In this document: positions 10,383 through 17,892 of the stretch, in pieces | How the letters are laid out: the number at the start of each line of letters is the position of its first letter | Position numbering within the stretch: the stretch's first letter is position 1 | Assembly: GCF_000203815.1 (NCBI RefSeq) | Contig: NW_004457736.1 | Coordinates: forward strand, 496,001-560,000 | Source of the DNA: Cavenderia fasciculata | Lineage: Eukaryota; Evosea; Eumycetozoa; Acytosteliales; Cavenderiaceae | Direction: 5' to 3' | Length of the DNA: 64,000 nt | The notes under the pieces: model-generated | What the model saw: the letters and a program-made list of their open reading frames with translations, nothing else | Told to the model about the DNA's origin: nothing | Database searches by the model: none | Program-made: the position numbers and the translations under genes

Positions 10383-12587
10383 ATGGATACAGTAGTTCAT
10401 TCAAATGACCTTTTGTCAGGTTATAAATTGGTGGCACATTTGAGAAGTGGAGGAGAGGGAAGAGCAATATTAATGGAAAAGGATGGTCAAAAATATGTTT
10501 GTAAACAAAGAATATTTGAAAATATTTTTGAAGCCAATGCTGGTTTAAAAGAGGTAAGATATATATAGATATTAATTAGATTTATGATTCAAAATAATAT
10601 GATCAAAGAGGTAAAAGTTAATTAATCATTAATTAATTCATTCATTTTATTTTTTAGGCATACTCTTTGGCAAGTATTAAACATGAAAATATTATTGGTT
10701 TTGAAGAAGTATTCCTTAGAACTGTTCCAGGTGATGACCAGATTTATCTGTGTATCATCACAGAGTTTTGTTCAAAGGGTGATTTGTTGGATTACTTATT
10801 TGACTTTATAAAATCAAATGGAAATCTTGGTGACTCCTCGTCGTCGTCGTCGTTGTCTTCTACTTCCACATCCACCACCACCTCATCGTCAATGTACTCT
10901 TTGAGTGAAGGTATCGAACACTCTATTTCTACTGGTAGTATGGGTAGCTATACTGGCAAAGACAGTGGAGACGATGTACCTATTCAATCCACATCTACAT
11001 CGACAACATCAACCTCTAAAATCGAAATATCATCCACTCTTGAATTCAGCAACAGCTTTAAATTAAAAGAAACTAGATCAATGAATCAATCAATGTCATC
11101 ATTATCAATTCAATCAAATAATAATAATAGTAATAATAGTACAAATAGTGTGAGTTCACCAAAATCATCATGGATGGCAGCATCACCATTCCCTCCACTT
11201 GCAGATCCAGGTTACATTCCAAAAGCCATTGCAATTGAATGGTTAACACAACTATGTTTAGCAATGCAATCATTACATCGTGAACATTTAATTCATCGGG
11301 ATATCAAGAGTGAGAATGTATTTATAGGTGCAAATGATACCCTCAAAATTGGTGATTTTGGTTTGGCAACAAAGTCTGGTGCAACCACCAAAAATCATGG
11401 AAAGGTTGGAACATACAATTATTCAGCACCAGAAGTATTGAATGGTAAATCATACGATAGATCTGCCGATATATTCTCACTTGGTTGTGTATTTTATGAA
11501 GTGTTGACACTCAAACTATTGGTTCAAAATAGACTTTACTTTGGTGAAGAAATATTACAAGATAAATTTGATAAAATGAAATTCCTTTCTGATTTTCCTT
11601 CTGTATGTCAAACTCAAATGAAACAACAAACTATTTTAATTAATACATTTCTTTTTATTTATATTTTTGTAGCAATATCAATATTTAGGACCGTTGGTAT
11701 TAAAAATGTTGGATGGAAATAGTGCATTGAGACCATCGATTGAATCAATTTTGAATAAATTAAATGGAACTCAAAACATGTCAAACAAGAGTCTTGTATT
11801 CACACCCAAACGAAAACTGACAGGCATAAGAAAACAATTGGGTAAAGGTGACATTAAAGAAGCATCTGAAGTTTTGGGAAGAGCTCTTGCATATGATTTA
11901 AGATTTTCAACTTTGTTTGCTCCCGATGACCCAGAATCTACAAATATCAGAACCGAGTTTATGAAATTTACTTTAAAAATATTTATTAAAAGAAGAGGCC
12001 AAATTTGGGTATGATATCAATCAATTAATCAATCAATATTCATATTTCTTTTTATTTATTTAATTATTTAATTAATTTTTAATTTTTAATTATTTTAGGG
12101 ATATTATGGTAAAGATAATAAATTACAAAGTGTTAGTATATGGCATACACCAGATGTTAAAAAGAATATTAGAACTGCAGATTTATGGATTGGTAAATTA
12201 AAGTTTGTCACCAAGGTTGGGTTGGCTCGTTGTAGGATGGCAGGTCAAACTTTAAAGGCTATCAATGAAATTATGACCAATGAAAATGGTGACAAGAATT
12301 GGTTCCTTCCATACATTGGAACAGACGAACAGTATAGAGGAAATGGTGTTGGTACCTATGTAGTGGAATCAGTTCTTGAATGGGCCGATCATAGTGGCTA
12401 TCTTGCAAAGACACTTTGTCTATCAAAAGACAGTTTCCCATTTTTCCAACGACTCGGTTTCGAAGTTGACAAGGAAATACGTGGTGGTATATTACCATCT
12501 CACGTAGAAGTAGTTTATATTTTAAAGAGACCTCCAAGATTATCATTATCGACATCTGATCTTAGTGAATTAATTAATATTAATTAA
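10383..12587 (+). CDS. Protein kinase-GNAT acetyltransferase fusion, copy A
   Basis: Exons 10383-10553, 10658-11602, 11673-12008 and 12099-12587, all phase 0, give 646 residues. The N-terminal two-thirds is a Ser/Thr kinase: Gly loop RSGGEGRA (21-28), ATP Lys in VCKQ (K41), HRDIKSEN (270-277), DFG (290-292) and SAPEVL. All catalytic residues are present, so it should be active. A Ser/Thr/Asn-rich insert of about 110 residues sits between the N-lobe/alphaD part and the WLTQLCLAMQSLH helix. The C-terminal 200 residues are a GCN5-related N-acetyltransferase: ASEVLGRALAYD start, then YRGNGVGT acetyl-CoA loop (563-570) and FFQRLGFEV. A tandem paralog lies at 14080-16296. Substrates of both domains are unknown; I do not know this fusion as a named family. 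Confidence 0.85.
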
Positions 12588-14079
12588 CTTAATTAATTAA
12601 TCAAAATATTTTGGAAAACTTAAAATGGTCAATCAATTATTTGTTGTTGTTGTTGTTGTTATTGTTGTTGTTGTTGTTGTTTATATATAATAATAGATTA
12701 TATTCAATTCCACCCTCCAAATAAAGTAGACATCCCCTTATTTATTTATTTATTTATTTTTAAAGTAAAACAAATATCACTTTTTTTTTTTTTGTATATT
12801 TATATAATAATATTTTTAAGATATTTTGACACGAATACGAAACACTCTGTTTCACCACTGTTGTTCAACAAAACACTTTTTGGTAACCACCTCATTCACA
12901 CAGCATTCAAAAAAAACGAACTTTTTATGGTAGAACTATGACGCATATTTCCTTGAACGCTACATCATCATAACACTTCAAATTGATACTATTAAATATA
13001 TTAATAACAATTTAATTTAAAGGGTCAACAAGTAGTAGAACTAAAAGTTGACAAGTTGTGTATCAATAAGAGAGAGAGAGAGAAACAAATAACCTAGTGA
13101 AGTGTAGTATTAATAACAAAAAGAGAGATTGGTTGCTCTTTGTACAAACTGTAGAAACTCCGTGAAGAACAACAACAATAAGTGTAATATTATTATTTAT
13201 ATTTATATATATATATATATATTGATTGATTATTATCATTGTTCTGCATTTAAGAACAACATAACACAACACACAACAATAACTACAACAACGCAACAAC
13301 ATGATGTTTCTTTTCAAAGTAGTATTTAAAACTCAATGATAACATAATGATTCCACCACACTACGACAATAGCTAGCTAGCTTGCTTGCTACACTCTTAT
13401 TGCCACTCACTACTACTACTATTACTACTACTACTACCTACATACTCTACGATGACAAATTCTATTCTATTCTTGGGCCAGCATATAGTTGTTGTCTTTA
13501 GCTAACCGACACACACACACACACAGTATATACAAACTAGTTTGATGTTTATTTTTATCTTAACAAGAATGTCATTGTATTATTTATTATTATTATATCG
13601 ACAGAACAGTGCAACGGTAACAGTAACACAACAAATAGAAGCGATATATAATCAAGAAATACGCATATCGTAAACACATATCAAACCCCCTTTTTCACCT
13701 ACTCACCTACTCACCCATTCATTCATTGTTAGCTGTGTATATACACACCCGTCAATCGATAATATTATCCCCACTCAGCATCTCTCCTCATCCCACCATA
13801 GATGGTCAATCTATTTATATAGTATAATATCGATCCCATCCAAGATTGTTATCATGAATTTAGTGACATTATTCATTATCGCCATCATATTGTTGTCATT
13901 TATTATTGGGATGATTTTAACATTTATTGGATGATTTTTAATCATCATCTTGATTCGGTTGGATCAATTGCACTTTTGGATATATTTGGCCACCATCACC
14001 AAGTCCATTTAAATACAAATACTAATCAATCATTATGATTTAAATATATAGAAATAGAAATAGAAATAGATAGTGAATC
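12588..14079. other. Spacer between the tandem kinase-GNAT genes
   Basis: This 1.5-kb stretch holds TTG repeats (12640-12680), GA and TA repeats (13070-13085, 13200-13222), CTA/CTAC repeats (13400-13440) and an ACAC run near 13510. It should include the copy A terminator and copy B promoter. Short open frames overlap simple repeats and I do not accept any as genes. Confidence 0.4.
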
Positions 14080-16296
14080 ATGGATACCTTACCAGTTGAC
14101 CCTTTATCAAATTATAAGCTAATCAAAGAATTGAGAGCTGGAGGTGAAGGAAAGGCCATATTAATGGAAAAGGATGGTCAAAAATATGTTTGTAAACAAA
14201 GAATATTTGAAAATATATATGAAGCCAATGCTGGTTTAAAAGAGGTAAGAACACACTCCCAACAATATATATATTAATGATTGGGTCCAAGTTAATTAAT
14301 TTATTCTCATTAATTTTTTAGGCATACTCTTTGGCAAGTATTAAAAATGAAAATATTATTGCATTTGAAGAAGTATTCCTTAGAACTGTACCTGGTGATG
14401 ACCATATTTATCTGTGTATCATCACAGAGTTTTGTTCAAAGGGTGATTTGTTGGACTTTTTATTTGAATTTACTGCCGTTCATGGAGGCCTGGATAAAAC
14501 ATTGGAAACATCATTACATCTCGACTCGAATTCATCTACCACATCCACTTCATCTGCCACCTCATTCACAGCCGACACTATTGACAATACACTTACCTCT
14601 GGTAGTATTAGTAGTGTTGGAAGTGCAACTGAAGATATTAAACCACCACAACCACCAGTTGTCATTATCAACAACAATAATAATAGTAGTCAATCAACAA
14701 CCCCACCACCACCAGCCAAACTTGAAGCACAGCTCTCATTTCAAATGAGTCTCCTTTCACAACGTATCTCTGAAGATCAACGATTCATAGTATCTCATGC
14801 CAAAGAGTTGATTCAAAAGGTCAAAGAAAAGAAACCATGTTCTCCATCACCACTACCCAAAGAATCCAGTAAACCAACTCTGACCGTTCCAAATAATAAT
14901 AATAATAGTAGCGAGGAAACCACATCATCAAGATCATCATCTCTATCTAGTATATCACTCGCACCCATTTCAGATACTGTCTATATTGATAAATCGATAT
15001 TGATCGATTGGTTAACACAACTTTGTTTGGCTGTACAATCATTACATCGTGAACATTTAATTCATCGGGATATCAAGAGTGAGAATGTATTTATCGGTGC
15101 AAATGATACCCTCAAAATTGGTGATTTTGGTTTGGCAACCAAAGCAAGCAGTACCACCAAAAATGAAGGAAGAGTTGGAACATACATCTATTCAGCACCA
15201 GAAGTATTGAATGGTAAATCATACGATAGATCAGCCGATATATTTTCACTTGGTTGTGTATTCTATGAACTCATTACACTCAAACTATTGGTTCAAAATA
15301 GAAGATACTTTGGTGAAGAAATATTACAAGATAAATTTGATAAAATGAAATTCCTTTCTGATTTTCCACCTGTATGCAAGTCAAAAGAAATCATAATCAT
15401 AATTCAACCCCAAAATCATTTATTAATATGTCTGTTCTTTTTTATAGCAACATCAACATTTAGGACCATTAGTATTAAAAATGTTGGATGGAAATAGTAC
15501 ACTTAGACCATCGATTGAATCAATCATTGATAAATTAAATGGAACTCAGAAATTGTCAAGCAAGAAACTTACAACCAATTTCAATGGAATTAGAAAACAA
15601 TTGGGTAAGGGAGATGTCAAGGAAGCATCTGAAGTTTTGGGAAGAGCTCTTTCAAATGATCCAAGATTTATTAAATTATTCCCACCCGAAGATCCAGATT
15701 CAAAGGATATTATCTCTGAATTTATGAAATTTACATTAAAGGTTTTCTTAAAGAGAAGAGGTCAAATTTGGGTATGTACATACATTAAAACAACTCTTTA
15801 TAGATAAACTTATTTATTCTTATCTTTGTTTTATTTTTAGGGATACTATGGTAAAGATCATAAATTACAAAGTGTTTGTATATGGCATACACCAGACCAG
15901 AAAAAGGAAATCAAAAAGGCTGATATATTGGTTGGTAAATTAAAGTTTGTCACCAAAGTTGGCATTTCTAAATGTAGGATGGCAGGTCAGACAATGGGAG
16001 CAATCAACGATTTGATTTCAAAGGAGAATGGTGACAAGAATTGGTTCCTTCCATACATTGGAACCGATGACCAATACAGAGGAAATGGTGTTGGTACCTA
16101 TCTCGCCGAACCAGTTCTCGAGTGGGCCGATCACAGTGGCTATCTCTGCAAGACACTTTGTTTCTCAAAAGACAGTTTCCCATTTTTCCAACGACTCGGT
16201 TTCGAAGTAGACAAGGAAATTAAAGGTGGATCATTACCATCTCATATCGAAGCTATATATATTTTAAAGAGATCTCCAAGAGTTATTTCAGATTAA
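14080..16296 (+). CDS. Protein kinase-GNAT acetyltransferase fusion, copy B
   Basis: Exons 14080-14244, 14322-15371, 15448-15771 and 15841-16296 give 664 residues, with introns at the same four-exon positions and phases as copy A. The kinase has RAGGEGKA, VCKQ, HRDIKSEN, DFG and SAPEVL, all intact. The GNAT domain has YRGNGVGT and FFQRLGFEV. Conserved parts are nearly identical to copy A at the DNA level, while the insert inside the kinase is longer and unrelated in sequence (Ser/Thr-rich, poly-Asn and poly-Pro patches). Both copies therefore come from a tandem duplication, with the insert evolving freely and the catalytic parts under constraint. Copy A has long Asn/Ser tails after the GNAT fold; copy B ends soon after it. 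Confidence 0.85.
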
Positions 16297-16434: not shown

Positions 16435-16648
16435 AAATCAATCATCATTACATTATTCACATCAACTACAATTTTAAATAAACCCCTATTTGTATTTATA
16501 AATATAATATTAATAATATTTGAAAAAGAATAAATAATAAATATTAATATTTATTTGATCTTCAAAACAAACAAACAATTCAATAGAATTTAAATATAGA
16601 AATTTAAAGCTAAGATCGAATATTGAATGAAAGTTAAAATCGAATTTA

Positions 16649-16848
16649 AGGTCCAGTATATTTCGGGCTCAGTAGGTCAATTGACTAGACCGAGGGACCT
16701 GCCAAACGATAGTTCAATATACTTATCCCAAAAAGGAAAGAGCTTTCCAAAAAACCAAATTTTTATCAAGCAGGAGGTGTCGACTAAGAAGACAAATATT
16801 AGAGTCGGTTGAAGATCCTTGGTGAGGTGGCCCCAAAACCAATTCCTC
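16649..16848 (+). ncRNA. Candidate structured non-coding RNA
   Basis: This stretch is much richer in G+C than its flanks and folds locally. AGGTCC (16649-16654) pairs with GGACCT (16695-16700). Inside it CTC (16668-16670) and GGTC (16675-16678) pair with GACC (16688-16691) and GAG (16692-16694). GGAAAG (16735-16740) pairs with CTTTCC (16743-16748), and CGACT (16781-16785) with AGTCG (16803-16807). A 61-codon open frame (16627-16812) overlaps it but lacks any family resemblance. I do not recognise U snRNA, SRP, RNase P or snoRNA motifs, and no DUSE-like element is close. Strand is a guess. Confidence 0.35.
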
Positions 16849-17892
16849 GTCCTTTACATTATTATTATTATTATTCATTTCGATATCTTTATTCATTCAT
16901 TCATTCACGTTATTACTTTTAACTTGTAGTAAAATCATTATCAGTACTTTTATATTATTACCTATCATTCAAACAAACAAACTACTATCAAACAAACAAA
17001 CAATTAATTATAATACGACTTCTTGTTTAATTTAAATAGTATATATACATAAAACCAACCAGAAACAAAAACAACAAGTAACATTACAACAACAACAACA
17101 TATTTAATTCAAAAAAGGGTAAGAATGATGAAGCTCACAGATCGCACTCGAATGAAAGGAATGCGAACTACTACTACTACTGCTACTATACATCATACAC
17201 TTAATACGAGTACATCATACAAAACAAAACAAAAATCAAGTTTCTATAAATATATATATAAAGAAGCTTATAACCACCTACCTCTACCACCATTGGTTGG
17301 ATTGATTTCATTGTAGATATACACATAAAAGAATGAGGAGGTCTACTAGTAGGTGGAAACCGAGTCAAATTTCACCACCACACTAGTTTTAGTTTAGACA
17401 CACCAACCAAACAAACAAAATAATTATCCTACTCGCGAATTTAACCCTAACACCAACACACAACCGACACGACAATAATAATAATCACAACAAAACAATA
17501 ACACAACACCACTACAACAACAACAATAACAACGCAATAATACAATCAATAATTGCAATTGATTCAAGATATAAGATTATTTTTGTTGTTTGAATCATTT
17601 AATCATTTAATCGTTCATTCATTCATTCACTCAAAGTGATACGACCGAACAATAACAACAAAAAAGAAAAAGAATAGTTTTATGATATTTAATCTATCAA
17701 AGGTGGTGATAGATAATTAATAAAATAACAACAACAACAACATTCTCAGAGATAATAATAATAATAATAATCTCCTAAAATAACAAAACAAAACCAACAA
17801 GGATAATAATTTTTTTGGTAAAATCAACTTTTACCAAACTATATAACCTTTACAAAATAATAATAATATTTAAAATAATAATAATGGTGTGA

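Follow-up and report, generated by a model that had tools for sequence, protein, structure and literature searches.

Two tandem genes and their protein products

Two tandem genes in the window, the whole 64,000-nucleotide stretch of Cavenderia fasciculata DNA analysed here, each appear to encode a single polypeptide in which a NEK-like Ser/Thr kinase, interrupted by a long low-complexity insert, is followed by a short linker and a PAC-like GNAT. We tentatively propose, at a probability of about 0.4, that the GNAT would be mainly cis-regulatory and acetyl-CoA-responsive, or else a slow acetyltransferase, and would in this way adjust the output of the kinase. The two genes, called copies A and B, have the following parts.

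10383-12587, + strand: copy A gene, 646 aa (splicing, phases, Pfam)
10383-10553, 10658-11602, 11673-12008, 12099-12587, + strand: copy A exons 1-4 (splice consensus)
10443-10804, containing intron 10554-10657, + strand: copy A kinase, part before the insert, residues about 21-106 (profile, motifs)
Starting at 10443, + strand: copy A RSGGEGRA, Gly loop
10494-10511, + strand: copy A YVCKQR with the catalytic Lys
10805-11215, + strand: copy A Ser/Thr/Asn-rich kinase insert, residues about 107-243 (splicing, A/B alignment)
11216-11756, containing intron 11603-11672, + strand: copy A kinase C-lobe, residues 244-400 (profile, motifs)
11294, within 11351-11368 and within 11423-11440, + strand: copy A C-lobe motifs HRDIKSEN, DFG and APE, respectively
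11673-12008, + strand: copy A exon 3, with the kinase end (residues 373-400) and the first 62 GNAT residues (423-484) in a single open frame (splicing, profiles)
11823-12542, containing intron 12009-12098, + strand: copy A PAC-like GNAT, residues 423 to about 632 (Pfam, profile, motifs)
12333 and 12441, + strand: copy A YRGNGVGT (acetyl-CoA loop) and FFQRLGF, with F600 at the place of the PAC Tyr
14080-16296, + strand: copy B gene, 664 aa (splicing, phases, Pfam)
14080-14244, 14322-15371, 15448-15771, 15841-16296, + strand: copy B exons 1-4 (splice consensus)
14985-15531, containing intron 15372-15447, + strand: copy B kinase C-lobe, residues 277-433 (motifs)
15063, within 15120-15137 and within 15192-15209, + strand: copy B C-lobe motifs HRDIKSEN, DFG and APE, respectively
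15586-16293, containing intron 15772-15840, + strand: copy B PAC-like GNAT, from residue 452 (Pfam, profile, motifs)
16075 and 16183, + strand: copy B YRGNGVGT and FFQRLGF, with F629 at the place of the PAC Tyr

The exon borders of both genes are predicted from splice consensus. All six introns are GT...AG, in phase 0, 69-104 bases long and at corresponding positions; each of the eight exons has a length divisible by three, and spliced A and B are open reading frames throughout. Splicing upholds the four exons with matching phase-0 introns that the first-pass annotation had drawn for both genes, and its coordinates and its length of 646 residues are correct. It had also spoken of kinase exons and GNAT exons as separate, which they are not: the GNAT starts in exon 3, and domain and exon borders differ. 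The match of the kinase to NEK1 reaches position 265 of 268 and takes in the first part of this exon, and the match of the GNAT to the solved structure 2qec starts at GNAT profile position 12, which is the second part. Because exon 3 on its own has no Pfam match, its description as two part-domains rests on these whole-protein profile matches.

A search of the organism's own genome with protein B revealed a third gene, copy C, on contig C5 and with the same domain order. Spliced, it has 955 residues in two exons, and its sole intron lies at the place of intron 2 in A and B. Exon 2 of copy C, 412 codons long, holds the kinase end and the whole GNAT uninterrupted, with a low-complexity insert within the GNAT. 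Identity to copy A is 50% in the kinase and 34% in the GNAT. An adjacent kinase gene and GNAT gene mistakenly read as one would give the same apparent fusion. We consider such a gene-model error very improbable because exon 3 passes in frame from kinase to GNAT, with the domain border inside it in both A and B, and because the border in the distant paralogue C lies inside one uninterrupted exon; on these two grounds we rejected a split-gene artefact. The in-frame exon 3 and the shared order in copy C likewise bear out the prediction of one kinase-GNAT protein per gene. The fusion looks real and appears to be retained in both tandem genes and in C, and the kinase-GNAT architecture is, on sequence grounds, older than the A/B tandem duplication.

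Catalytic features of the kinase and GNAT domains

Pkinase scores 138.1 bits in A and 135.8 bits in B (Pfam, cut-off 31.7), and the catalytic Lys, HRD, DFG and APE are conserved in all three copies. With Pkinase and these catalytic motifs, the kinases of A, B and C belong to the eukaryotic protein kinase class. The kinase had been called intact, which is true of Lys, HRD, DFG and APE but not of the Gly loop. This loop is off consensus in every copy, its first Gly being Arg in A (RSGGEG) and B (RAGGEG) and its third being Ala in C. We infer that the kinase of A and B is active, and hold this conditionally because of the loop. When a kinase profile with the inserts omitted was compared with the sequences of solved structures in the PDB, the top match was NEK1 (155.3 bits, positions 2-265 of 268), and NEK2 matched with up to 131.7 bits, both among the best 60 of 321 matches under 1e-20. 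The nearest description by this profile search is a NEK-like Ser/Thr kinase, unlike NEK1 and NEK2 in its long low-complexity insert, which lies outside the profile, and in its C-terminal GNAT.

Acetyltransf_1 scores 28.5, 24.9 and 23.3 bits in A, B and C (Pfam, cut-off 20.7). The GNAT loop consensus is R/Q-x-x-G-x-G/A, and an acetyl-CoA loop of the form R-G-x-G-x-G, either RGNGVG or RGKGIG, is conserved in all three. Together, the scores above cut-off and the loop place A, B and C as predicted members of the GNAT superfamily. Against solved structures, the GNAT profile matched 2qec (E 2.9e-7, 33.5 bits) and PAC (7k09; E 3e-6, 30.2 bits), both weakly. A chance GNAT match was ruled out, as three paralogues exceed the Pfam cut-off and the profile matches solved GNATs. 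An AlphaFold model of exon 4 of A, paired solely with exon 4 of B, was too poor to be of use (pLDDT 41, pTM 0.34).

The Tyr in PAC's FYERLGF aligns with Phe in all three copies, namely F600 in A, F629 in B and F922 in C. This was read from the profile alignment, in which the numbering of the PAC chain is the paper's number plus 2, taken to reflect a tag. The general-acid Tyr of the PAC type (Y171 of PAC) is thus absent from A, B and C. Gcn5 has a motif with a catalytic Glu, and at the place that corresponds to it by eye, A and B have Asn and C has Gly. At least 34 Acetyltransf_1 matches occur in the genome, three of them A, B and C and the other 31 in 30 loci (L020-L049). Among 15 other GNAT frames, those longer than 190 aa from 21 of these loci (L020-L040), nine have Tyr at the corresponding place by eye, so Phe is no general habit of this genome. 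The available part of the PAC study describes Y171 as very likely the general acid and reports greatly reduced activity without it, water probably compensating for the missing acid; a value of 3.6%, which we take to be relative activity, stands beside Y171F (PMC7933286). The three GNATs therefore share with PAC their profile match, which extends to 2qec, and the acetyl-CoA loop, and are unlike it in having Phe for the general-acid Tyr and in carrying a fused kinase. Intact, the earlier word for the GNAT as well, suits the retained acetyl-CoA loop but is too strong for a domain with Phe at this place in three of three copies. Neither the change from Tyr to Phe nor the residues at the Gcn5 place would prove or exclude catalysis.

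Divergence between copies A and B

Amino acid identity between A and B is 86% in the kinase and 77.5% in the GNAT, so the first-pass view of the catalytic parts as nearly identical fits the former, but the latter less well. The kinase insert (A residues 107-243) is low-complexity, and its 32% identity comes from an untrustworthy alignment. By the Nei-Gojobori method, without a significance test, dN is 0.087, dS 0.31 and dN/dS 0.28 for the kinase lobes, and dN is 0.137, dS 0.72 and dN/dS 0.19 for the GNAT. For A versus C and B versus C, silent sites are saturated. Comparison of the two halves, as had been advised, thus yields ratios well under 1 in both. Near-identity had further been read as selection on both domains. 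The ratios agree with this, but for the kinase the argument is weak, since its silent sites also look less diverged. Synonymous differences fall at 41 of 162 sites in the kinase and 62 of 133 in the GNAT (rounded; Fisher p 1.5e-4). Codons for the same residue differ in 23 of 212 cases and 41 of 159, respectively (p 2.6e-4), which is a second view of the same data. Fourfold sites alone, of which 10 of 70 and 15 of 58 differ, are below significance (p 0.12), and the longest identical run between A and B, 62 nt, was reached in 296 of 5000 permutations and is not unusual enough. Because the kinase seems to have diverged less at silent sites than the GNAT, we suggest that the likeness of the A and B kinases is partly due to homogenisation or gene conversion of the kinase exons, and we doubt that selection alone caused it. 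Codon constraint may also account for the uneven silent divergence.

Possible roles of the GNAT domain

In the regulatory reading that we prefer, the GNAT would bind acetyl-CoA. Having neither the usual catalytic Tyr nor, by eye, a Gcn5-type Glu, it would act chiefly in cis as an acetyl-CoA-responsive domain, or it might slowly acetylate a bound partner or its own protein. The supply of acetyl-CoA would thereby tune kinase output. Because the change from Tyr to Phe is common to all copies, the choice between a regulatory acetyl-CoA-binding GNAT and a second enzyme tilts to the regulatory domain; an acetyl-CoA-binding GNAT that is regulatory or weakly active would be as plausible as a second writer. 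Against it, a GNAT that lacks the Tyr can probably still work, by analogy with the water compensation described for PAC in the available part of that study (PMC7933286).

If the GNAT were a second writer, phosphorylation by the kinase and acetylation by the GNAT would fall on the same targets or on linked ones. The Phe that replaces the PAC general acid in three of three paralogues counts against this, as does the lack, judged by eye, of Glu where Gcn5 has its catalytic one, and we hold it to be somewhat unlikely, if still a serious contender. In its favour are the conserved acetyl-CoA loop, the GNAT dN/dS of 0.19, and TAF1 and CIITA, for which kinase and acetyltransferase activities in one polypeptide are reported in the portion of the source at hand (PMC9138534). 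Autophosphorylation is said there to raise acetyltransferase activity. TAF1 is presented in the same portion as having a central HAT domain in addition to two kinase domains, and CIITA as having a NACHT domain said to act as a kinase; for neither does that portion describe a PAC-like GNAT placed after a kinase (PMC9138534).

The GNAT could instead acetylate a small molecule, an amine as for PAC, with the kinase merely localising or switching it. One of the two nearest solved GNATs, PAC, does acetylate a small molecule, but both matches are too weak (33.5 and 30.2 bits) for any substrate to be deduced from them. The objection from the Phe applies here too, and we give this possibility little weight.

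Returning to the regulatory reading, we note that it and the dual-writer alternative are separable by simple assays because all copies share the Phe; CRISPR editing has been reported for several dictyostelid species (PMC13046832). The joining of a protein kinase to a GNAT has come through two duplications, one old and one more recent, with both parts constrained, and would offer a compact natural system in which to ask if kinase output can be set by acetyl-CoA, or if a single protein writes two marks. A wider idea, that protein kinases in a social-amoeba-like organism read acetyl-CoA through a retired or slowed GNAT and pass nutrient state on to phosphorylation, seems to us quite unlikely; if true, nutrient state would be coupled directly to phosphorylation.

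Relatives and comparable proteins

No description of a protein kinase-GNAT fusion was found in the literature as far as it was accessible, and the dictyostelid kinome of 2023 (Kin et al.) may list these genes. The available main text of the D. discoideum kinome paper contains neither 'acetyl' nor 'GNAT' (PMC1420674), nor does PMC2939887. As far as we have seen, kinase and GNAT are known families newly combined here, and we make no claim of first description. NAGS-NAGK is likewise one protein named for acetyltransferase and kinase activities, but its kinase is N-acetylglutamate kinase, a metabolite kinase and not a protein kinase, according to the part of the source available (PMC1865377). N-acetylglutamate synthase is the subject of that paper and of PMC7878489, to judge from the accessible portions of both. 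Prokaryotic proteins in which GNAT is fused to EVE and PIN domains are described in the available part of PMC7641849.

No relative turned up in viral contigs, where the GNAT alignment had 49 pattern matches. Among 117 pattern matches in genome contigs, protein B found one relative, a bacterial kinase stretch covering residues 283-373 only, and the GNAT profile found nothing in the genome of that bacterium. Across its phylum, 12 of 199 genomes matched the GNAT profile; the frames concerned measure 163-363 aa and are too short to be the same fusion. Within the C. fasciculata genome, no kinase was found beside the other GNATs in 29 of the 30 loci, as searched with a profile from A, B and C at E up to 1e-3, which distant kinases may escape. 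The kinase at the remaining locus (L035) is on the opposite strand near the locus end, so by this profile none of the 30 shows a same-strand kinase. Of 404 candidates in a genome-wide search for the Pkinase family, 123 were scored; A, B and C were not listed, so the search is no census.

Just after copy B, the region at 16600-16860 of the window is less AT-rich and RNA-like by eye. It has no Rfam match, folds with ordinary energy (z 0.32) and finds only itself in the genome, and we rejected it as an RNA element.

About 126 kb away on the same contig as A and B, one 372-codon frame has a U-box followed by a GNAT-like region (L018:1521-2636; G000:C2, about 379.0-380.1 kb). The U-box scores 50.2 bits and Acetyltransf_1 17.5 bits, under the cut-off of 20.7. 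By the A/B/C GNAT profile the frame scores 25.2 bits (E 1.1e-6 over the set of frames searched), and its match to protein B is no better than E 0.014. In the reverse search, the GNAT part of the frame recovered nothing but itself and missed A, B and C, and to the eye the frame has a degenerate-looking acetyl-CoA loop. Kinship of this region to the A/B/C GNAT is possible and serves as a lead only.

A further protein kinase domain match, at G000:C2:495258-495758, ends 243 bases before the window start and shares 33% identity with copy B over the matched part.
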